Source: a virus. From it: 43,384 nt of DNA. Location: positions 1-43,384 of IMG/VR virus record IMGVR_UViG_3300005099_000086; one strand, 5' to 3'. Below the pieces are notes generated by a model. It was not told the DNA's origin and did not search any database. It saw nothing but the letters and a program-made list of their open reading frames with translations. Shown here piece after piece: positions 8,485 through 43,384 of this stretch. Numbering within the stretch: the stretch's first letter is position 1; the number at the start of each line of letters is the position of its first letter. The translations under genes and the position numbers were made by a program.

Positions 8485-8933
8485 ACAAGACAATCATATC
8501 CGTTTTAGACCATGCACAAAAGGAACACTTTGCAATCATAAGAACAAGTGAAGGCTACAATCTAGAACTTGAGTGGCCCCGAACCGACTCAATAAGGACA
8601 GGCGAAAGTTTAGAAGAATGCCTGGACACTTTGTTCAATATTTTGTTGGAAAAAAGACAATCGGTGGTGCCAGTTTCTTACAGAGAAGTAAAGTGTCTGG
8701 ACTACAAAAAAGGAATTAGGTTTCTTTTGAACGAATCCGAAATTCCAGGGCAACCAATAAAAGAATGGAAGGAATACAAGGCCGAAGGCTCCGACGAAAA
8801 AGTAGTGATTGTTACGACGCCAGCAAATGATTTGTGGACATTTATGGTAAAGAAGGCTGACCGAGGCTATTCTGTTGAGTTGATAGGTTCAACGGATCTA
8901 ATCGACAAAGAATTTTTGGAGGATGTAGAATGA
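8481..8933 (+). CDS. Hypothetical 150-aa protein upstream of polymerase
   Basis: Not recognised. ATG overlaps the preceding stop (ATGA), with GAGGAG upstream. Appears to hold two similar beta-rich halves (HFAIIRTSEGYNLELEW and LWTFMVKKADRGYSVELIG), suggesting an internal duplication of a small domain. Its stop overlaps the polymerase start, so it is co-translated with it and may be a replication accessory protein. Confidence 0.55.
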   Translation: MNKTIISVLDHAQKEHFAIIRTSEGYNLELEWPRTDSIRTGESLEECLDTLFNILLEKRQSVVPVSYREVKCLDYKKGIRFLLNESEIPGQPIKEWKEYKAEGSDEKVVIVTTPANDLWTFMVKKADRGYSVELIGSTDLIDKEFLEDVE

Positions 8934-11164
8934 AGATTGTTCCGCCTGAAGGCCCCAAAGCCTCAAGAATTGCAATTGTAGGCCAAAATCCCGGCAAACA
9001 AGAAATTCTGATGGGTCGGCCCTTTGTCGGCCCATCAGGCCAGCTTTTAAATGCCTTGCTCAGCAAGGCAGGCATTTCAAGGCGAGATTGTTACATCACA
9101 AATGTTTTTAAATTTGAATGCAAACCAGAAAAACTTTCAAAAGAAGAAAGGCAAAAGCATTTCCTCGAACTCCGAAAGGAGCTTGAAGGAATGGCGAATT
9201 TGGGGCTTATAATTTGCCTTGGGCGGTGGGCTTTAGAGGCCCTAACGGGCCATACAAAAATAACTCATCATAGAGGCTCGGTTTATCAATGGAAAGGGAG
9301 GTGGCTTGTGCCGACGTTTCATCCTGCGGAAATTTTAAGAGGCCAGACGCATTTGAACATTATTCTCCTTCATGATGTTCGAAAGGCAGTTAAAGTTTTG
9401 AATGAAGGCTTTGCCGAACCTGAGGTCAAATTCGATTGGATAGGGCCAGGCCAAGCCTTAAAGGACTTTGCCGAAAGCTCTTTTGCCTTCGATATTGAAG
9501 TGGCAAGAGGCAAGATAGTCTGTTTGGGCCTTTCAAATGAAAAAAGGACAGTCGTCATTCCTTTCAAGAATGAGAGTTTGAAAAATTATTGGCCTGAAGA
9601 GACGGAAAGGGAAATTTGGAAAGAATTGAAAATTGTTTTTAATTCTCCTTTTGTCAAAATTGGCCAAAACCTAAAATTCGATTTAACATTTTTATGGCCT
9701 TTGCTAGGCAAAATCTCTCCGCCATTTTTTGACACTTTATTGGCACATCATCTTTTAGAGCCTGACTTGCCGCACGATTTGGCGTTCCTCACGTCCATTT
9801 ACACTTCATTCAACTTTTATAAGGATGATTTGAAGGAATGGCACGAAACGAAGAGTCTTGAGACGCTAGGCCAATATAACGCCAAAGATACATTTATAAC
9901 CTTTCAAATCGCAAAGATTTTTGAAAGAGATTTAGAGGAAATTGGACTTGCCGACTTCTTTCATCATTATGTCATGCCCCTCCAATTTGAAATTTTTAAA
10001 ATGGAACGGCGAGGCCTTTTAGTGGATTTGCAAATGCGTCAAAAGTTAAAAGACGAATTAAAGCAAAGGATAGAGAAGGATTTAGAGGAACTTCATAAAT
10101 TGGCCAAATGGCCAGTCAATCCTCTAAGTCCAAAACAAATACAAAAGTTTTTATATGAAGATTTAATTTTAGAGCCTGTTTATAAAAGAGGTACATCAAA
10201 AGTCACAACAGATGAACAGGCTCTTGAAAGACTTTACAGGAAATATGGCCTCAAAGAAATAAACTTAATTTTAAGCGTAAGAAAAAATTCCAAAGTTTTA
10301 GGAACCTATCTTGAAGCCGTTCCTGACCCCGATGGGAGGATAAGGACGGATTATGGCATTGCCGAAACAGGACGCCTCACGTCAAAGAAGAACATTTTTG
10401 GGAAAGGCGGCAATTTACAAAACATCCCAAAAGAATTAAGAATCTTTTTCAAACCTACGCCTAGTTTTGCCTTTTGTGAATGTGACCTTAAACAGGCTGA
10501 AAATAGGACTGTGGCATGGCTAGCCAACTGCCGCATCTTGAAAGATGCCTTTTTGAAAGGCATTGACATCCATAGACTGACGGCCTCGTGGATATATGGC
10601 AAAAAAATTGACGAAGTCACTGGCCAAGAGCGGCAAATGGGCAAAAAATGTAATCATGCCTTGAACTATGGAATGGGCCCAAGGACTTTTGCGGCATATG
10701 CAAACATCTCGGTAGCTCATGCGAGCGAGCTAATAGAAAAATATTTTGGTCTTTATCCAGAGATAAGGGAGTGGCACAGAAAAATTGAACAAAAAATCCG
10801 AAGAGATAGGATGTTGGAAACGCCATTCGGTCGGAGGAGAATCTTTAGGGGCAGGATTGGCCCCGAAACCTTAAAAGAGGCCTTCAATTATATTCCTCAA
10901 TCTACTGTGGCAGATTATCTTAATCACGCCTTACTTCTTCTTGGAAAGATGAACCATCGAATTGTTTGCCAAGTCCATGACTCGATTCTTTTGGAATTTC
11001 GGCCGAAAGACCTTAAAAGCCTTTTAGAGGATTTGGAACTAGCCTTCAAAATCGTTTTGAATGTTGAAGGAGAAAAGTTTTGGATTCCCGTTGAAGTTAA
11101 AGTTTATGAAGAGGGATGGAACAGCAAGGTTGTTTTTGAAAAAACTTTAAACGAAAAACTTTGA
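8930..11164 (+). CDS. UDG-domain / family A DNA polymerase fusion
   Basis: 744 aa. Residues 1-160 resemble the uracil-DNA glycosylase superfamily (family 4/5 type): GQNPGKQE, GRPFVGPSGQLLNALL and a FHPAEIL motif. The next part is a 3'-5' exonuclease with D188/E190 (FDIEV), D251 (GQNLKFD) and D320 (YNAKD). The polymerase follows: motif A with D519 (CECDLKQAENRT), motif B R568-x3-K572-x3-H576-x3-Y580, motif C QVHDS with D684. It would replicate phage DNA. Odd points: the position matching E. coli Pol I F762 is His (H576); the UDG part lacks the usual N-terminal Fe-S cysteines, and its first motif has Gln where family 4 has Glu. Start overlaps the preceding stop (ATGA). Confidence 0.85.
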   Translation: MKIVPPEGPKASRIAIVGQNPGKQEILMGRPFVGPSGQLLNALLSKAGISRRDCYITNVFKFECKPEKLSKEERQKHFLELRKELEGMANLGLIICLGRWALEALTGHTKITHHRGSVYQWKGRWLVPTFHPAEILRGQTHLNIILLHDVRKAVKVLNEGFAEPEVKFDWIGPGQALKDFAESSFAFDIEVARGKIVCLGLSNEKRTVVIPFKNESLKNYWPEETEREIWKELKIVFNSPFVKIGQNLKFDLTFLWPLLGKISPPFFDTLLAHHLLEPDLPHDLAFLTSIYTSFNFYKDDLKEWHETKSLETLGQYNAKDTFITFQIAKIFERDLEEIGLADFFHHYVMPLQFEIFKMERRGLLVDLQMRQKLKDELKQRIEKDLEELHKLAKWPVNPLSPKQIQKFLYEDLILEPVYKRGTSKVTTDEQALERLYRKYGLKEINLILSVRKNSKVLGTYLEAVPDPDGRIRTDYGIAETGRLTSKKNIFGKGGNLQNIPKELRIFFKPTPSFAFCECDLKQAENRTVAWLANCRILKDAFLKGIDIHRLTASWIYGKKIDEVTGQERQMGKKCNHALNYGMGPRTFAAYANISVAHASELIEKYFGLYPEIREWHRKIEQKIRRDRMLETPFGRRRIFRGRIGPETLKEAFNYIPQSTVADYLNHALLLLGKMNHRIVCQVHDSILLEFRPKDLKSLLEDLELAFKIVLNVEGEKFWIPVEVKVYEEGWNSKVVFEKTLNEKL

Positions 11165-16767: not shown

Positions 16768-16973
16768 TTCTTCTTCCTCCTCCCCTTAGGCCTAATTTTT
16801 TTGAGGACATTTAAAGCCAAATTACATTGCAAAAATGTTCTAGTCTTTTTGCCTCTTGCTAGAATTGGCCTGCAAAACTCCTCAATTGTTTTGCCTGCCC
16901 TTCTGGCTTTCTTCCTCAAAGCTCCTGGTCTTTTGATTGCCTGTTGAATCCATTTCTTTTTTCTTTGAGCCAT
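16764..16973 (-). CDS. 69-aa basic phage protein (KWIQxAIKRPGALR family)
   Basis: Starts MAQRKKKWIQQAIKRPGALR, a segment I have seen in many small phage proteins of unknown function, and ends in a Lys/Arg tail (KKIRPKGRRKKK). Strong ribosome site GGGAGGAG. The first 92 nt overlap, in another frame, the end of the ATP-grasp gene. Very basic, so probably nucleic-acid-binding. Family resemblance is from memory. Confidence 0.6.
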   Translation of the reverse strand: MAQRKKKWIQQAIKRPGALRKKARRAGKTIEEFCRPILARGKKTRTFLQCNLALNVLKKIRPKGRRKKK

Positions 16974-19191
16974 TTTCTCCTCCCGACGGGATGTAATATC
17001 CCCAATCCTTAACGGATTGAAGGTCTAAGCCTTCCCCTATGTCGGGTCTATAAAACATAGGATAGGTTGCTACTTCCTTCAAAACATCATACATCATTTG
17101 GCTCGCTTCATCAATCGTTTGGCCCCATCCTACGCATGTTCCTAACTCTCCGTCTGTTCCGCCGCACCTTAAAACTTCATCCAAATAGACGTCTAAAAAA
17201 ACGATGTTTTCTAAATGCCTTTTCTTGAAATGTGTAAAAAGCGGAGCCCCTACATAGGCTTTGTCAACCCTGCCGTAAGGCCATTGAGGCACACAAAACC
17301 TCACTCCAGTTATCCATTCAGCTTTAGGATGAAAGTCTCCGAATTGTCCTCTTGCAATATCGCTATAAACTTTGCCCCATTCATCTTCCACGCCTAAAAG
17401 TTGGATGTATGTTGCAGGATAACCCTGACGGGCAGTAAATTCGAGGAACCAAGCCCCATCCTCGTTGAGGATGCAATTTACATCCAAAGGCCCTGGCGGA
17501 TAGCCCTCAAGATGGGGGATAAGCCTGGCAAAAGTCTCATCGTAGAGTTTTCCAAGCTCACTTCCATAATAAAAGACGACCGAACCGCATTCGCCCGTAA
17601 AAGGGGCAGTGTCACTATAAGTCCTCATTAACGGCTTATATTCAAAAGTTGATTGGCCACAAAACATAGGCATACCACTTCTGCGGACATAAACTATGTG
17701 GTTAGGGACTTCGCAGGAATAAACATAACCTTTGTAACTTACTTTCTTAATCTTTTTAGGATTCAAGGTTGCATCATACTTGTGATAATATAGATAGAAC
17801 CACTCATGCTGACCTTTCGTCAGCCTTTTGATATTGGCTACATACCCTAATTTCAACAAAAGCTCCTGCACATCATCAGCTAAGGTCTTAGAGGCAGTAA
17901 AATAGACGGGCTGGTGAGCATGGCCGTCCCCTGCTGTCAAACCCTCAAAAAGGCACTCCAAATATTCTACATCAAGCTCCAACATTTCCCTAGGGATGTG
18001 CTTCTCTTTTGCGTGCCCCAGCTTTCTAAGGTAACTATAAAAAGGTTCACAATAGGTAAGGCAGAAGAATTTATCTGCATAATAATGCCACTCAGCTCCA
18101 GATGCCAAAGCAAAGTCCTCCACAATTTCTTGGACTAAACCAAACCGCTTACTTTTGCGGCTCTGGGCAATTATAATTTGAGGGCGACTATTCCTGCAAG
18201 AACCCTCCGCAATGTACAGCCCTAAGAAACGCAGCCACACCTTCATGTCAATGCCTGCAAAAGTGTCTTGCCTTTTGCCCCGCCATTTTGCAGTTCTAGG
18301 AATTCTTACTTGATGGGTTATCTCCCGTATTTCTTTAGATTCCAATTTATAGAGGGAATGATAGTCATAATAATAGAACTTGTGGTTAGGAGTTACGCAG
18401 AAGTTTATGCGTGTCCTTGGGCCCGACTCATAAGTCCACATTTCGCCTTCGTACCTATACTTAAATAAATGAGTCGGCTTCTGATATTCTAGAGTCCTGG
18501 ACTCGGCATTTAAGGTCGCAACTTCATCTTCCATAGACAACTGGCTAAACTTTTTCCACCCTTCTTTAGTTAAAATTTCTGTTTCTTCATCAAAGCAGTT
18601 AAAACCTGACCACTTTTTCCCGTCGTACCATCCTTCGATGGACATTTGTTGTCCATCAATCATTTCCTGTAAGACAAATCTTATTTCTTCTGTCCAATTT
18701 TTCTTCCAAAAATCTAACATCCTAACCATATCCTTCCAACCTTTCGACGGATAATTTGCCCAAGTCTCGATATTTCCTGAAGGCTTCATAATATATCTCT
18801 TTTTTGTCTGTTGGACGAAGGCCTTAGCCTCATCGAAGTTCGTAAACTCCTTTTCTGGCGGAACTTTGAGGCCTGCCTTCTTGGCCAACTCCATTCCAAA
18901 CTGCCTATCCAACTCCATTTTGTCGTTCATTTCCCCTGCCCCAACGACATAATGGCCTTGACGGCGAAGCCTATCGGCAATCCGTCCAGATTTTACAGTA
19001 TCAAAGATTATGATGGTTTGGTCATCTATCCATTTTCCCCACTCCTTCTTCTCCAACTTTTTTATCATTCCATCGTAAAGATGTTTAAATCTATTTTTGT
19101 GGATATAGACCGCTACATCGTTTCCCTCAAGTTTCAACTTCATTGCAATTGGAAGACCAGCCCCATCAATCGAAAGTAAAAGAAACTTCAT
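16882..19191 (-). CDS. PurD-like ATP-grasp ligase interrupted by an intein
   Basis: 769-aa precursor; removing residues 199-513 leaves 454 aa. The extein resembles phage proteins annotated as phosphoribosylamine-glycine ligase: an N-terminal domain, then YIMKPSGNIETWANYPSKG (P-loop-like ATP-binding region), FVLQEMIDGQQMSIEGWY, and C-terminal GPLDVNCILNEDGAWFLEFTARQGYP, where metal-binding Asn/Glu sit. ATP-grasp enzymes join a carboxylate to an amine using ATP. True substrate unknown; purine synthesis is not implied. ATG overlaps the previous stop; AGAGGAG precedes it. The last 30 codons overlap the basic protein gene, and their composition (KKKEMDSTGNQKTRSF) may be a low-constraint tail. Confidence 0.75.
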   Translation of the reverse strand: MKFLLLSIDGAGLPIAMKLKLEGNDVAVYIHKNRFKHLYDGMIKKLEKKEWGKWIDDQTIIIFDTVKSGRIADRLRRQGHYVVGAGEMNDKMELDRQFGMELAKKAGLKVPPEKEFTNFDEAKAFVQQTKKRYIMKPSGNIETWANYPSKGWKDMVRMLDFWKKNWTEEIRFVLQEMIDGQQMSIEGWYDGKKWSGFNCFDEETEILTKEGWKKFSQLSMEDEVATLNAESRTLEYQKPTHLFKYRYEGEMWTYESGPRTRINFCVTPNHKFYYYDYHSLYKLESKEIREITHQVRIPRTAKWRGKRQDTFAGIDMKVWLRFLGLYIAEGSCRNSRPQIIIAQSRKSKRFGLVQEIVEDFALASGAEWHYYADKFFCLTYCEPFYSYLRKLGHAKEKHIPREMLELDVEYLECLFEGLTAGDGHAHQPVYFTASKTLADDVQELLLKLGYVANIKRLTKGQHEWFYLYYHKYDATLNPKKIKKVSYKGYVYSCEVPNHIVYVRRSGMPMFCGQSTFEYKPLMRTYSDTAPFTGECGSVVFYYGSELGKLYDETFARLIPHLEGYPPGPLDVNCILNEDGAWFLEFTARQGYPATYIQLLGVEDEWGKVYSDIARGQFGDFHPKAEWITGVRFCVPQWPYGRVDKAYVGAPLFTHFKKRHLENIVFLDVYLDEVLRCGGTDGELGTCVGWGQTIDEASQMMYDVLKEVATYPMFYRPDIGEGLDLQSVKDWGYYIPSGGENGSKKKEMDSTGNQKTRSFEEESQKGRQNN
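17653..18597 (-). mobile_element. Intein in the ATP-grasp gene (315 aa, LAGLIDADG)
   Basis: In-frame insertion of 315 residues (precursor 199-513). The N-terminal block starts CFDEETEILTKEGW; block B is TPNHKFYYY near intein residue 69. Two LAGLIDADG helices are FLGLYIAEGS and CLFEGLTAGDG; the C-terminal block is VPNHIVYVRRSGMPMFCGQ followed by Ser. The last intein residue is Gln rather than Asn, preceded by Gly rather than His. That is a rarer but known splicing variant. The flanking extein joins as GFN-STFEYKPL. Both splicing and homing-endonuclease parts look intact. Confidence 0.85.
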
Positions 19192-38319: not shown

Positions 38320-38332
38320 TTTTTGCCTCCTT

Positions 38333-40942
38333 TCAATAGCCAGTCGTGCTGGCTATTCTTTTTAAAGTTTCTTCGTACCATTCATCTTGGTTCCATTTTT
38401 CCTCCCCTTCAACTTCTTCGTCTTCGCCTCTCATCGTAACCTCAGGTTCGTAAGCCAACGCATCCAAAAGATGGTCATCTCTCGAGACGGGGAAATGTAA
38501 GATTTGCCTTTCCAATTCATGAAGGCCCTTTTCGGGGAGGAAAATCATGCCATTTTCGGCCAAAGGAATAAGGCCCCTTATCCTCTGTTTTTTCGACTCT
38601 TTAGTCGAAGGCTTCACAGCTTTTAGCTGGATGAAAAAGCCTTCATTTTCCATGATGTATTTTGCAAATGGGAAGAAGATTCTTTGCGAAGCAACATCTT
38701 CAATGGCAATGCAACGGCATTTCCATTTTCTGGCAAGACGAAAAGCCTCACGCAAGAGTTTTTCAGGCTCAAATCTTCTTTGAAGTTCTTCAAGGACAAA
38801 CCTCCGGTCCTTGTAATCTCTTGCCACTACGACAATTCCCGTTGGGTCAGCTTTCTTTTTGGTTGAAACGGCAGGGTCAACAATAACTACTCTATCCATG
38901 TAGCCTAAGTCCAAGACCTCTTGAACATCTTCCTCTTTGTTGTGGATTTGAATGAGCCATTTAAATTCGTTAAATTTAAATCTGCCAAACCACGAAAGGT
39001 CAAATTCAACTGCATCTTTGGAAATTGGATTGTTTTCGTATTGGCAGGAGAAGAGGTAAGGATTTTTCTTTCGCTTTTCTTCCAACCACTCGAGTGAGAA
39101 TCTTTCTGGAAAAATTGGCTCGCCATTTTGAACCGCCGATTCGTGATAGAATGGGAGGTATTCAGGTTGGTTCTTTTCTATCCAACCTGCTAAATCATCC
39201 GTTCCCCACCTCGTGCCTACGACGAGGTCGAGGCATTTTTCAGGCACTTCCAAAAGGGATTCGGCATATTCATGCCATTGAATTGCCTCCTGAACCTTAA
39301 CCTCACTTGGAAGGCCGTCACTTCCAAGGCTATCCTCGCCAATCAAATCATCTTTTATTATGACATTGTAATGTGCCCCTGTGATTTTGCCTCCAACGCC
39401 TATACATTCAAATGTACATTCTTGCCAAGCTCCTTGACGGTTCAATGTGAGTTTTTCATTTGACCATGTAGTTTCGCTTTTCCTCTCAGGAATGCAGGCA
39501 CTAAAGATTTTTATAAAATCTTTATTTCTTTCACAAACGTCTTTTATAAGCATGATTCGGCCTTTTGCCACTCTCTCGCCTGACCCTGCAAGGAGGCATC
39601 TTATGCCGCCATTTCCAAGAACATTCAGTTCTTTGAGGAATGGGGCTAAAAGGCCCTCGCCATAAAAACTTTGGAGGTAAAGCCACATTGGAAAAACTAT
39701 GCTGAAACAAGTGGTGTTGTGGGAAACAATATCTCCTAACAAAAGAGTGTGAGTAGGATTGCTTTCTATTGAAACTATAGCCTTAGGGCCTAAATACTTC
39801 ACTTCCTTTACCCTTTCCCACGCCAAGTCGCTTTCCGCCAAGGCGGTTAAGAGCTTGTGACCTAAGAATTTCGCCGCTTTTAGGACTTTTCTTCTTGAAG
39901 TGGCATAATAATTATCTACCCTTATTCCGTATTGTCTTAGCCACCATTTCCATTTTCCTATCAAGTCTCTCCATTGAGGCGGAAACTTGTCGTATTGCCA
40001 TTCCTGCGTTGGCTGCTTATGCCATATTCCATTATCCGTAAAAGTCACTCTCCAATGTTTTTCCCCTATCTTATACAGCCTTGCTTGGATGCCAAACCTT
40101 AACAAAAGGTTTTGAACATCCCTGCAAAGCCATTCGGAAGCGGAAGTAAAGTTGGTGCCATGACGACCAGACTTGATTGTGCCGTCACATTCGAATAAAG
40201 CCCTCAAAAAGGCTTTAACTGTTTTTTCATCAGCGTAGAAAATCAATTTAGGAACTCTTTTTTCAGAAGAATTAACAAAATCAATTCCAGTGGCTCTTAA
40301 CAAATCTCGTAATTTCGCTATTTCCACTAGAGGAGTGGTGCTACTTTTGTAGTTTCTGATTATGCCCTTGGCTCCACAAATACGAGCCAAAAGGCTTACC
40401 TTTCTTAACAGCTTTCTGTTCACACTGTAAAAAGCTATTTTGTCTTTTCCTACATGCCCATCGCCTATTAGATAGCCTAACAATGCTGCCAAGCCTGGAA
40501 AATGGCCTTTTCCAAAAGGCAACTTTCTAGGCACGGCTATCCATTCTCCTTCTTTGAGTCTTTCTGCTTCTTTCCATTGCAGGAATGTAAAAACAGGATG
40601 GTTTGTCGTAACTTGTAGTTTTCTGCCTCGTTCAGTAGTTACTTCCACGCAGGGAGCGATTTGGCCAACATCCTCTATCTTATATTTGCCTTCAATGACC
40701 TTGCCATTTTGGATTTCAAATTCTGGATAATGTCTCATCTTGTAATAATAATCTCTGACAAGGCATTTAAAGTGCCCACGGGGATGAAACCTACCAATTC
40801 TTCTTCGGCCTTTCAAAATGTCTCTTGAGAGGTCGAGGAACCATTTTTCATGGAGATTCGTCAAATCCTTAAAGCCCATGACATAGGCCAAAAGGACAGG
40901 GTCAAAAAGGCACTTTGTTCGTAATTCTACAACATCTTTCAT
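38333..40942 (-). CDS. Large terminase subunit interrupted by an intein
   Basis: 869-aa precursor. Removing residues 60-409 leaves 519 aa, normal for TerL. N-terminal ATPase: PRGHFK joined to TTCFSIVFPMW after splicing restores the P-loop (the intein sits inside Walker A). Walker B is VIIKDDL at 527-533, then QYENNP. Nuclease: VIVDPAVST with D689, AIED at 746-749, and RDDHLLDALAY near 821-831. It cuts concatemers and pumps DNA into the head. Start overlaps the small terminase stop as ATGA. Confidence 0.9.
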   Translation of the reverse strand: MKDVVELRTKCLFDPVLLAYVMGFKDLTNLHEKWFLDLSRDILKGRRRIGRFHPRGHFKCLVRDYYYKMRHYPEFEIQNGKVIEGKYKIEDVGQIAPCVEVTTERGRKLQVTTNHPVFTFLQWKEAERLKEGEWIAVPRKLPFGKGHFPGLAALLGYLIGDGHVGKDKIAFYSVNRKLLRKVSLLARICGAKGIIRNYKSSTTPLVEIAKLRDLLRATGIDFVNSSEKRVPKLIFYADEKTVKAFLRALFECDGTIKSGRHGTNFTSASEWLCRDVQNLLLRFGIQARLYKIGEKHWRVTFTDNGIWHKQPTQEWQYDKFPPQWRDLIGKWKWWLRQYGIRVDNYYATSRRKVLKAAKFLGHKLLTALAESDLAWERVKEVKYLGPKAIVSIESNPTHTLLLGDIVSHNTTCFSIVFPMWLYLQSFYGEGLLAPFLKELNVLGNGGIRCLLAGSGERVAKGRIMLIKDVCERNKDFIKIFSACIPERKSETTWSNEKLTLNRQGAWQECTFECIGVGGKITGAHYNVIIKDDLIGEDSLGSDGLPSEVKVQEAIQWHEYAESLLEVPEKCLDLVVGTRWGTDDLAGWIEKNQPEYLPFYHESAVQNGEPIFPERFSLEWLEEKRKKNPYLFSCQYENNPISKDAVEFDLSWFGRFKFNEFKWLIQIHNKEEDVQEVLDLGYMDRVVIVDPAVSTKKKADPTGIVVVARDYKDRRFVLEELQRRFEPEKLLREAFRLARKWKCRCIAIEDVASQRIFFPFAKYIMENEGFFIQLKAVKPSTKESKKQRIRGLIPLAENGMIFLPEKGLHELERQILHFPVSRDDHLLDALAYEPEVTMRGEDEEVEGEEKWNQDEWYEETLKRIASTTGY
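39716..40765 (-). mobile_element. Intein in the terminase P-loop (350 aa, LAGLIDADG)
   Basis: Residues 60-409 of the precursor. Starts at Cys in CLVRDYYYKM, block B TTNHPVFTF near 54-62, LAGLIDADG helices LLGYLIGDGHV and LRALFECDGTI, and ends IVSIESNPTHTLLLGDIVSHN with the canonical His-Asn, followed by Thr as the first C-extein residue. Splicing joins GHFK to TTCF. Insertion inside the most conserved ATP-binding motif is typical of inteins. All splice blocks look intact. Confidence 0.9.
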
Positions 40943-42067: not shown

Positions 42068-42096
42068 ATTATATCAAAACGAAGTTTTGAAGTCAA
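42068..42096 (-). promoter_or_regulatory. Late-operon promoter
   Basis: On the minus strand TTGACT (42096-42091), a 17-bp spacer, then a perfect TATAAT (42073-42068). The expected start is near 42061, two bases before the metallopeptidase ATG at 42059. It is the only evident promoter for the 26-kb minus operon. Confidence 0.8.
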
Positions 42097-42331: not shown

Positions 42332-42360
42332 TTGACAACAGAAAAAAGAGTGATTATAAT
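42332..42360 (+). promoter_or_regulatory. Perfect consensus sigma70 promoter
   Basis: TTGACA (42332-42337), 17-bp spacer, TATAAT (42355-42360). The predicted start, near 42367, falls at the first base of the following palindrome. The strongest promoter in the window by sequence. Confidence 0.85.
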
Positions 42361-42365
42361 ATTGA

Positions 42366-42397
42366 TAAAAGCAATTGCTTTTAGCTCTTTGACAATT
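42366..42397 (+). promoter_or_regulatory. rrn-like hairpin plus boxA antitermination signal
   Basis: An 18-bp palindrome TAAAAGCAATTGCTTTTA (42366-42383) is followed directly by GCTCTTTGACAATT (42384-42397). The latter closely matches the bacterial ribosomal boxA (E. coli TGCTCTTTAACAAT), which binds NusB/NusE to make RNA polymerase resist termination. A hairpin before boxA is the order of rrn leaders, unlike lambda nut sites. The match is visible; function is inferred. Confidence 0.6.
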
Positions 42398-42411
42398 AAA
42401 TAGAGATAGAC

Positions 42412-42429
42412 GGCAAGGCCAAGGCCCCT
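42412..42429 (+). repeat. Leader arm complementary to the 3' end of the same gene
   Basis: GGCAAGGCCAAGGCCCCT pairs over 18 nt, with one G-U, with AGGGGCTTTGGCCTTGCC at 42818-42835, flanking the gene at 42459. The second arm is followed by six T (42836-42841). Part of this arm also takes part in the hairpin that hides the ribosome site. Confidence 0.6.
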
Positions 42430-42455
42430 CAAAAAAAAATTATAAAAGGAGGGGC
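42424..42455 (+). promoter_or_regulatory. Hairpin hiding the ribosome site of gene 42459
   Basis: GCCCCTC (42424-42430) can pair with GAGGGGC (42449-42455), burying most of the AGGAGGGG ribosome site. The 18-nt loop is A-rich. The same arms occur before gene 2643. The 5' half is also needed for the long-range pairing with 42818-42835, so the two structures exclude each other. Confidence 0.5.
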
Positions 42456-42458
42456 AAG

Positions 42459-42809
42459 ATGATTAAAAAAACTATCAAAGTAGATAGAAACCAAACAATC
42501 ACTGTTGGTGGTCTTAAAAAAACCGTCCATGTTGTTGCTGAGAAGGAAATTGACTGGCCGGAGACAATTGATGAAGCCGTGCAGTTGTTTGGTGATGAAA
42601 AAACGGTCTTAGAAAAGATACAAGAGATTTATAGAATTAGACAACAAGATAAATTAGCAAGGCAAAAAGCACTCGAGATTGTAGCACCTGAAAGGGCATT
42701 GCTAAAAGAGAAGGCCGAACAAGTAAACAAACTAGCAAAGCTCATTCTTGAAAAGGGCCTTTCAATTGAACAGTTAGAAAAAATGATAAACAAAAAATCT
42801 AAAAAATAA
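42459..42809 (+). CDS. 116-aa protein of the strong divergent transcript
   Basis: Not recognised by name. Starts MIKKTIKVDRNQTITVGG; residues about 31-47 (WPETIDEAVQLFGDEKT) resemble the centre of the protein at 2267, and both continue with a helix containing Tyr, Arg, Gln and Asp. The C-terminal half is a long Lys/Glu/Leu helix. It is the only plus-strand gene at this end, with its own consensus promoter, boxA-like leader and AGGAGGGGC ribosome site. It is likely strongly expressed and controlled; possible roles are DNA binding or host takeover. Confidence 0.65.
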   Translation: MIKKTIKVDRNQTITVGGLKKTVHVVAEKEIDWPETIDEAVQLFGDEKTVLEKIQEIYRIRQQDKLARQKALEIVAPERALLKEKAEQVNKLAKLILEKGLSIEQLEKMINKKSKK

Positions 42810-42817
42810 ATCTTAAA

Positions 42818-42841
42818 AGGGGCTTTGGCCTTGCCTTTTTT
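42818..42841 (+). terminator. Possible unusual terminator of gene 42459
   Basis: AGGGGCTTTGGCCTTGCC followed by six T. The local stem is weak (AAGG/CCTT), but the segment can pair fully with the leader at 42412-42429, so the U-run follows a long-range stem. Termination strength is uncertain. Confidence 0.4.
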
Positions 42842-42865
42842 ATTTTATGCCAATGTCAAGTTAGC

Positions 42866-42982
42866 TTGTCAAGTGAATTCTTAAACTAGCATTTTTAAAA
42901 ATGCTGATTATATCTATGTTTTTGACTGTCAAGTGAATTCTTAATTTTTTAAAAATCTCATTTTGTCAACTAAATTCTTAAA
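42866..42982 (+). repeat. Three direct repeats of TGTCAAGTGAATTCTTAA
   Basis: TTGTCAAGTGAATTCTTAAA (42866-42885), CTGTCAAGTGAATTCTTAAT (42926-42945) and TTGTCAACTAAATTCTTAAA (42963-42982). Spacing is 60 and 37 bp. Iteron or operator repeats. Confidence 0.65.
42888..42905. repeat. 18-bp perfect palindrome
   Basis: AGCATTTTTAAAAATGCT, directly before TGATTATATC of a GCAGATATAATC-family motif. The left-end motif at 259 is likewise preceded by a palindrome (GCACTT-cga-AAGTGC), so palindrome plus motif may form one composite element. Confidence 0.55.
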
Positions 42983-43091
42983 ATGCAGATATAATCTGCA
43001 CTTTAACTTGTCTCTTTATTTTTCTCTTGACATTTTTTCTCTCAGTTTTTGTAAAATCCCTCAAAAACGCCGATTTTTTCTATGTTTTCAC

Positions 43092-43248
43092 GTGGACAAT
43101 TTGTGGAAAAAGTAAAATCTTGTCTTTTGCAAGCTATAGCTTGCATTTTTGCGTTTGTGGTCAATCCTTTCCACATTTTGTGGACATTCAAAATCTTAGA
43201 TTTTGCAGATATAATCTACGTTTTGACGATTTTTGTCCACATGTCCAC
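43092..43248. repeat. GTGGACA iteron-like repeats, right cluster
   Basis: GTGGACA at 43092 and 43180, and inverted TGTCCAC at 43234 and 43242 (joined as TGTCCACATGTCCAC). With the left cluster this makes nine exact copies confined to the two non-coding ends, as far as I found. Confidence 0.6.
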
Positions 43249-43384
43249 ACAAAATACTTCGTATTTATTATTTTACATTTTGGCATTTTACATTTTGGAT
43301 TAAAATTTTTGGCAAAATTTTCTTCGGCAAATTTTTCCTTCCATCTGTTTTTTCGGCAAATTTTTTGCCTATATTCCTTTCCAA

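Follow-up and report, generated by a model that had tools for sequence, protein, structure and literature searches.

Complementary ends of a phage transcript with an rRNA-type boxA and their computed competition with a ribosome-site hairpin

A phage gene enclosed by complementary transcript ends

A single phage gene was identified whose transcript carries complementary sequences at its two ends, an rRNA-type boxA in its leader and a hairpin that partly hides its Shine–Dalgarno (SD) sequence; in energy calculations, the appearance of the 3′ end displaces this hairpin. The arrangement lies near the right-hand end of the window, i.e. the whole stretch of DNA that was analysed (a virus record of 43,384 nt), and its features are all on the plus strand. 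One reading, which is put forward tentatively and judged to fall a little short of even, is that the transcript serves as a monocistronic phage mRNA with the layout of pre-16S rRNA, in which zipping of leader and trailer opens the ribosome site only on the finished message. The first-pass annotation of this DNA had noticed the end pairing and the SD hairpin, both of which were recovered here, but it had missed the sigma-70 promoter and the boxA located 17 nt before the 5′ arm.

Among the genes of the record are those for a Mu gpT-like capsid, for a family A DNA polymerase and for a terminase that bears an intein. Relatives of the capsid among named phages were 30–39 % identical, and a sister capsid at 92 % was found in two metagenomic contigs (L227 and L228), with the DNA of this sister phage mostly ~78 % identical over the aligned parts. 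The alignment of these contigs stops at window position 38332 and does not reach the gene at 42459–42809, so the sister does not cover the end-paired gene. In the search for related phages, TerS and TerL had no relatives in viral contigs and PolA had distant relatives only. No DNA similarity to phages or plasmids was detected. Other features of the record include a uracil-DNA glycosylase domain fused to the family A DNA polymerase (8930–11164) and two apparent inteins, one in the Walker A region of the large terminase (38333–40942) and the other within an ATP-grasp-like gene (16882–19191).

The end-paired gene (42459–42809) encodes a charged protein of 116 aa with no known family. Codon usage in this ORF matches that of the other genes, with a score of 0.315 per codon compared to at most 0.003 in 500 shuffles, and the ORF is therefore very probably real. 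Searches of Pfam, PHROG, phages, viral contigs, GTDB genomes and 20 related virus records gave no significant match to the protein. A beta hairpin plus a long helix were predicted; the single-sequence model (pLDDT 81, pTM 0.36) had no significant match in the PDB. A weak likeness to the protein encoded at 2267–2539 was seen around a PET..E motif, with 9 of 1000 shuffles scoring as well, and BLAST between the two gene products gave no match. None of the collections searched yielded a homologue of the gene or of its leader, and hence any covariation; the structural case is thus built on one sequence.

The leader follows a promoter and contains an rRNA-type boxA

A sigma-70 promoter, TTGACA-17-TATAAT, is located upstream of the gene (42332–42360) and matches the consensus at 12 of 12 positions with a 17-nt spacer, which would place the start of transcription near 42367. 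The sequence GCTCTTTGACAATTAAATAG begins 17 nt past this probable start. An rRNA-type boxA, GCTCTTTGACA, occupies 42384–42394 with 11/11 matches to GCTCTTTRACA, and the exact 20-mer that it opens runs to 42403. The window has no other boxA-like site with at least 10 of 11 matches.

The 20-mer was found at twelve loci in ~85,000 species genomes. Half of these (6 of 12) are upstream of 16S/SSU rRNA: five Halodesulfovibrio loci have an identical 20-mer 100–102 nt before the 16S rRNA, and a CPR3 genome has one 159 nt before the SSU rRNA. Two further loci are Halodesulfovibrio leaders cut by a contig or locus end, three Planctomycetota loci have another context, and one locus, in Paenirhodobacter, heads a CRISPR array, with the exact rRNA-type boxA directly upstream (L277:224-778). 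By its sequence, the leader 20-mer is the boxA of rRNA leaders, and it may also function as a boxA in this phage.

The ends of the transcript are complementary over 18 bp

The first-pass annotation had reported that the leader is complementary to the 3′ end of the gene over 18 nt, and this was confirmed base by base: the 5′ arm, GGCAAGGCCAAGGCCCCT (42412–42429), pairs with the 3′ arm, AGGGGCTTTGGCCTTGCC (42818–42835), through 17 Watson–Crick pairs and one G–U, with a duplex energy of −38.3 kcal/mol. The 5′ arm ends 30 nt upstream of the ATG, while the 3′ arm starts 8 nt past the stop codon and is directly adjoined by a U-run (42836–42841), the likely end of the transcript. From known footprints, the 5′ arm would lie just outside the normal 30S footprint, so that a 30S subunit could bind the closed mRNA, and a ribosome terminating at the stop codon would for a short time occupy the first bases of the 3′ arm.

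With pairs scored as 3 for G–C, 2 for A–T and 1 for G–T, the arms reach a score of 47 in the 42367–42841 transcript, a value attained by none of 1000 dinucleotide shuffles (mean 23.7, maximum 40). Elsewhere in the 43-kb window, no inverted pair within 600 nt is as strong, and the best of 20 whole-window shuffles scored 43. Folding of 42367–42841, which had been suggested as a check on the pairing, produced a minimum free energy structure closed by the end-to-end helix, and the transcript folded better than all 100 of its own shuffles (z −3.5). The pairing of the arms is not due to chance. The single sequence available and the recurrence of GGCC-rich words in this genome would favour a chance or neutral complementarity without function, but the segment shuffles and the rank of the pair in the whole window make this quite improbable.

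Because the arms make an 18-bp inverted repeat that flanks a single gene, and the control region is rich in repeats, they might alternatively act as DNA, either as inverted protein-binding sites or as the ends of an inserted cassette. However, there is no target-site duplication or transposase, the helix contains a G–U pair, and the arms fit RNA landmarks, with the leader arm between boxA and the SD and the trailer arm between the stop codon and the U-run. A role as DNA is highly improbable on these grounds. A mobile cassette was rejected, having no duplication at its ends, as was a minus-strand terminator formed from the leader repeat, as no U-run follows on that strand.

A local terminator hairpin that shares sequence with the 3′ arm is weak, at −8 to −9.9 kcal/mol and containing two G–U pairs, and U6 follows both this local stem and the long stem. 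A link between the U-run and termination, as raised in the first-pass annotation, is plausible from this layout.

Likeness to pre-16S rRNA

The boxC element of E. coli and other Enterobacteriaceae, which belongs to the leader strand of the leader–trailer helix, lies 18–19 nt after boxA; the E. coli helix needs >17 bp, and tethering through boxA has been proposed to promote leader–trailer pairing (PMC10250234). The phage transcript resembles bacterial pre-16S rRNA (rrnTAC; PMC10250234) in having a boxA after the promoter and a complementary leader and trailer that close a looped-out body. The gap between boxA and the 5′ arm is 17 nt and the helix is 18 bp in the phage mRNA, compared to 18–19 nt and >17 bp in E. 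coli pre-16S rRNA (PMC10250234). Unlike in pre-16S rRNA, the phage helix encloses an mRNA with a coding ORF, and its leader arm doubles as an anti-SD strand. As boxA is followed after 17 nt by the 5′ arm, and six of the twelve copies of the 20-mer precede 16S rRNA, the transcript appears to copy the boxA and leader–trailer plan of pre-16S rRNA. The 17-nt gap does not apply generally: in Halodesulfovibrio, the leader bases that pair with the 16S trailer (22 perfect bp) begin at the end of boxA, so that the helix starts inside it.

In 2.96 Mb of retrieved sequence with 57 boxA-like sites, the partner within 760 nt scored 47 for the phage and 30 for the next site, with a shuffled maximum of 35. 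No second example of a boxA with a downstream partner was found among these sites, indicating that the arrangement is rare or particular to this phage group. Rfam 15 yielded no family match at gathering score in the phage transcript; a weak AfaR match was noted elsewhere.

The computed switch between the two folds

As also noticed in the first pass, part of the leader arm can pair alternatively with the ribosome site. The hairpin (42424–42455) has a 7-bp stem, GCCCCTC/GAGGGGC (42424–42430 with 42449–42455), and an 18-nt loop, and it overlaps the SD sequence AGGAGG (42447–42452), which lies 6 nt before the ATG at 42459. Partly hidden SD sequences are common among the genes of this record, and the SD hairpin alone is therefore unremarkable; the pattern alone is likewise unspecific in viral contigs. 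SD hairpins with GCCCCTC...GAGGGGC arms occur twice in the window, where none would be expected. The twin, at 2598–2631, has the same seven-base arms, precedes a short zinc-ribbon-like gene (ATG 2643) and is itself preceded by a strong stem near 2520–2537/2568–2585.

In a nascent folding series, the probability of the SD hairpin was about 1 at each tested 3′ end from 42465 to 42815. For RNA ending at 42840, the probability of the long helix was 0.99 and that of the SD hairpin was near zero, and in the full transcript the hairpin was at 0.001–0.004 per pair. The cost of opening the ribosome-binding site (RBS) was 11–12 kcal/mol before the 3′ arm and 1.8 kcal/mol after it. A similar drop, from 11.3 to 2.2 kcal/mol, was obtained when the ORF body was kept unpaired to mimic a full load of ribosomes, and the drop also held with a transcription start at 42400. 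When the 3′ tail was replaced by 100 shuffled versions, the RBS cost was 7.7–12.6 kcal/mol and the site was opened in none of them. The switch was stable between 15 and 65 °C and also under one other parameter set, counted as one because three alternative energy sets yielded the same numbers. The earlier suggestion that reaching the 3′ end of the mRNA could free the ribosome site is thus borne out as an outcome of the energy model.

The two folds had also been said to exclude each other. This applies to the six inner pairs, which compete, but the other 12 pairs of the 18-bp helix are compatible with an intact SD hairpin. With the hairpin forced, the full transcript folded at −109.3 vs −113.1 kcal/mol, a cost of 3.8 kcal/mol, and the margin of the switch is only this large because the 12 outer pairs do not overlap the hairpin. 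The compatibility of these outer pairs points to a toehold geometry, in which the outer strand would pair first and the inner six pairs would displace the SD. The toehold is partly structured in the nascent RNA, at 3–7 kcal/mol to open, and ribosomes may bind before the SD hairpin forms. A further suggestion, that the 3′ end acts as a regulator in trans, found no support in this genome: the 3′ arm pairs with its own leader at −40.4 kcal/mol vs −25.7 kcal/mol for the next start region. Action in trans was rejected, as none of the other start regions offers the 3′ arm a comparable target.

Proposed mechanism and its chief rival

By analogy with rRNA transcription, host RNA polymerase would start near 42367, and the leader would be kept at the polymerase by NusB/NusE bound to boxA. 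During synthesis of the body, the leader arm would fold onto the SD and block initiation. The emerging 3′ arm would then pair in vivo with the 12-nt toehold (42412–42423), branch-migrate through 42424–42429, which also form the anti-SD strand, and displace the SD. Transcription would end at the U-run that follows the 3′ arm. In the finished mRNA, closed by 18 bp, the ribosome site would be open just inside the closing helix, permitting translation. As the SD would open only once the 3′ arm emerges, translation would wait for the complete transcript. The broader proposal, that the phage copied the rRNA boxA and leader–trailer machinery onto an mRNA and so obtained a self-checking message of which only completed transcripts are translated, is more speculative, and is advanced with confidence well short of even.

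The chief rival is that the 18-bp helix serves 3′-end formation, processing or stability, as in rRNA, with the SD hairpin being incidental or a separate, secondary control. On this view, the second strand of a terminator stem that ends at the U-run could come from the tethered leader; alternatively, the helix could be a target of RNase III or could cap the transcript end. The helix does end exactly at U6, next to a local terminator that is weak; an 18-bp helix beside boxA is the plan of rRNA processing (PMC10250234), and hiding of the SD is common in this genome. However, the strand that is shared between the two folds is the anti-SD itself and the computed switch in RBS cost is large, an overlap for which pure termination or processing has no need, and a loop of 388 nt closes slowly without tethering. 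A helix that acts only in termination, processing or stability is therefore considered rather unlikely.

Likeness to other RNA systems

Opening of the ribosome site on closure, as proposed for the phage mRNA, differs from characterised cases of end pairing. The ends of AapA mRNAs pair, their SD hairpins are transient and the closed form is silent, and hok mRNA has likewise been described as inert (PMC6733600). The phage transcript shares with AapA/IsoA and hok a long-distance 5′–3′ pairing after transient SD-hiding hairpins during transcription, as in AapA3 (PMC6733600). However, the closed phage mRNA leaves its SD largely open by computation (RBS cost 1.8 kcal/mol), whereas theirs hides it, and neither an antisense RNA nor a small hydrophobic toxin was seen, the phage protein being charged and 116 aa long. 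A weak promoter-like site (9/12), which might direct an overlapping antisense RNA, is present on the minus strand, with its first hexamer at 42705. In the icaR mRNA of S. aureus, UCCCC in the 3′ UTR pairs with the SD region of the same mRNA and represses it (PMC3868564). The phage mRNA is similar in that its 3′ UTR pairs with its own 5′ UTR and would control ribosome access, but its 3′ arm binds the toehold and the anti-SD rather than the SD. As the bound strand is the anti-SD, the direction of control should be opposite to that of icaR and AapA.

It might nevertheless be that the phage message is silent when closed, as type I toxin mRNAs and icaR are, with end pairing blocking its expression and 3′ trimming or cleavage activating it. 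The characterised 5′–3′ paired bacterial mRNAs that were found all repress when closed (PMC6733600, PMC3868564), and AapA mRNAs too have transient SD hairpins. This explanation is improbable given that the known cases hide the SD when closed, whereas in the model of the phage mRNA it is the anti-SD that the 3′ end covers, with the SD left largely accessible, and given that a charged protein of 116 aa is unlike a small hydrophobic toxin.

A boxA in the suhB leader and the nut site in the lambda N leader have been reported to repress translation, and a loop of RNA to the polymerase was proposed (PMC5725501). These leaders are like that of the phage in having boxA in an mRNA 5′ UTR, and the proposed loop would keep the 30S subunit off during transcription; they differ in having no described leader–trailer pairing, and repression of suhB ends in Rho-dependent termination (PMC5725501). 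By analogy, repression of this type would act in the same sense as the mechanism proposed for the phage.

Synthetic toehold-switch riboregulators have a single-stranded toehold beside an SD-hiding stem, which is opened by strand displacement. The phage element differs from these in being natural and in that the mRNA carries its own trigger in cis, at its end. A limited search of the open-licence literature found no mRNA with boxA and leader–trailer pairing, or with activation by its own 3′ end; the absence is weak evidence because the searches were few and confined to such papers.

Bacterial mRNAs are normally translated while they are being made. If the proposed mechanism is correct, a message whose ribosome site stays hidden until the 3′ end has been made would separate transcription from translation by RNA folding alone. 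The transcript would represent a natural cis toehold switch, a new way to restrict translation to finished messages and, as far as was found, the first mRNA on the rRNA leader–trailer plan. With it, the proposal that boxA tethering promotes the pairing of distant RNA ends could be examined on a reporter only a few hundred bases long rather than on ribosomal RNA.

Noncoding sequence around the gene

A near-consensus promoter on the minus strand (42068–42096, TTGACT-17-TATAAT, 11/12) points toward the late operon and is divergent from the 42459–42809 gene. The sequence that follows this gene (42810–43384), together with positions 1–435, forms a repeat-rich noncoding region and resembles an operator, promoter or origin array within which the record was cut. 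It contains the repeat TGTCAAGTGAATTCTTAA near 42868, 42928 and 42966, and palindromic GATATAATC boxes near 42984, 43207, 252 and 292. In noncoding DNA of related phages, CGTTGTAACTTGTTGAAAACAAAGG-like long inverted repeats flank an AT-rich core (L096:2275-2600, L099:3530-3740 and L101:700-935), and these repeats are origin- or attachment-site-like.
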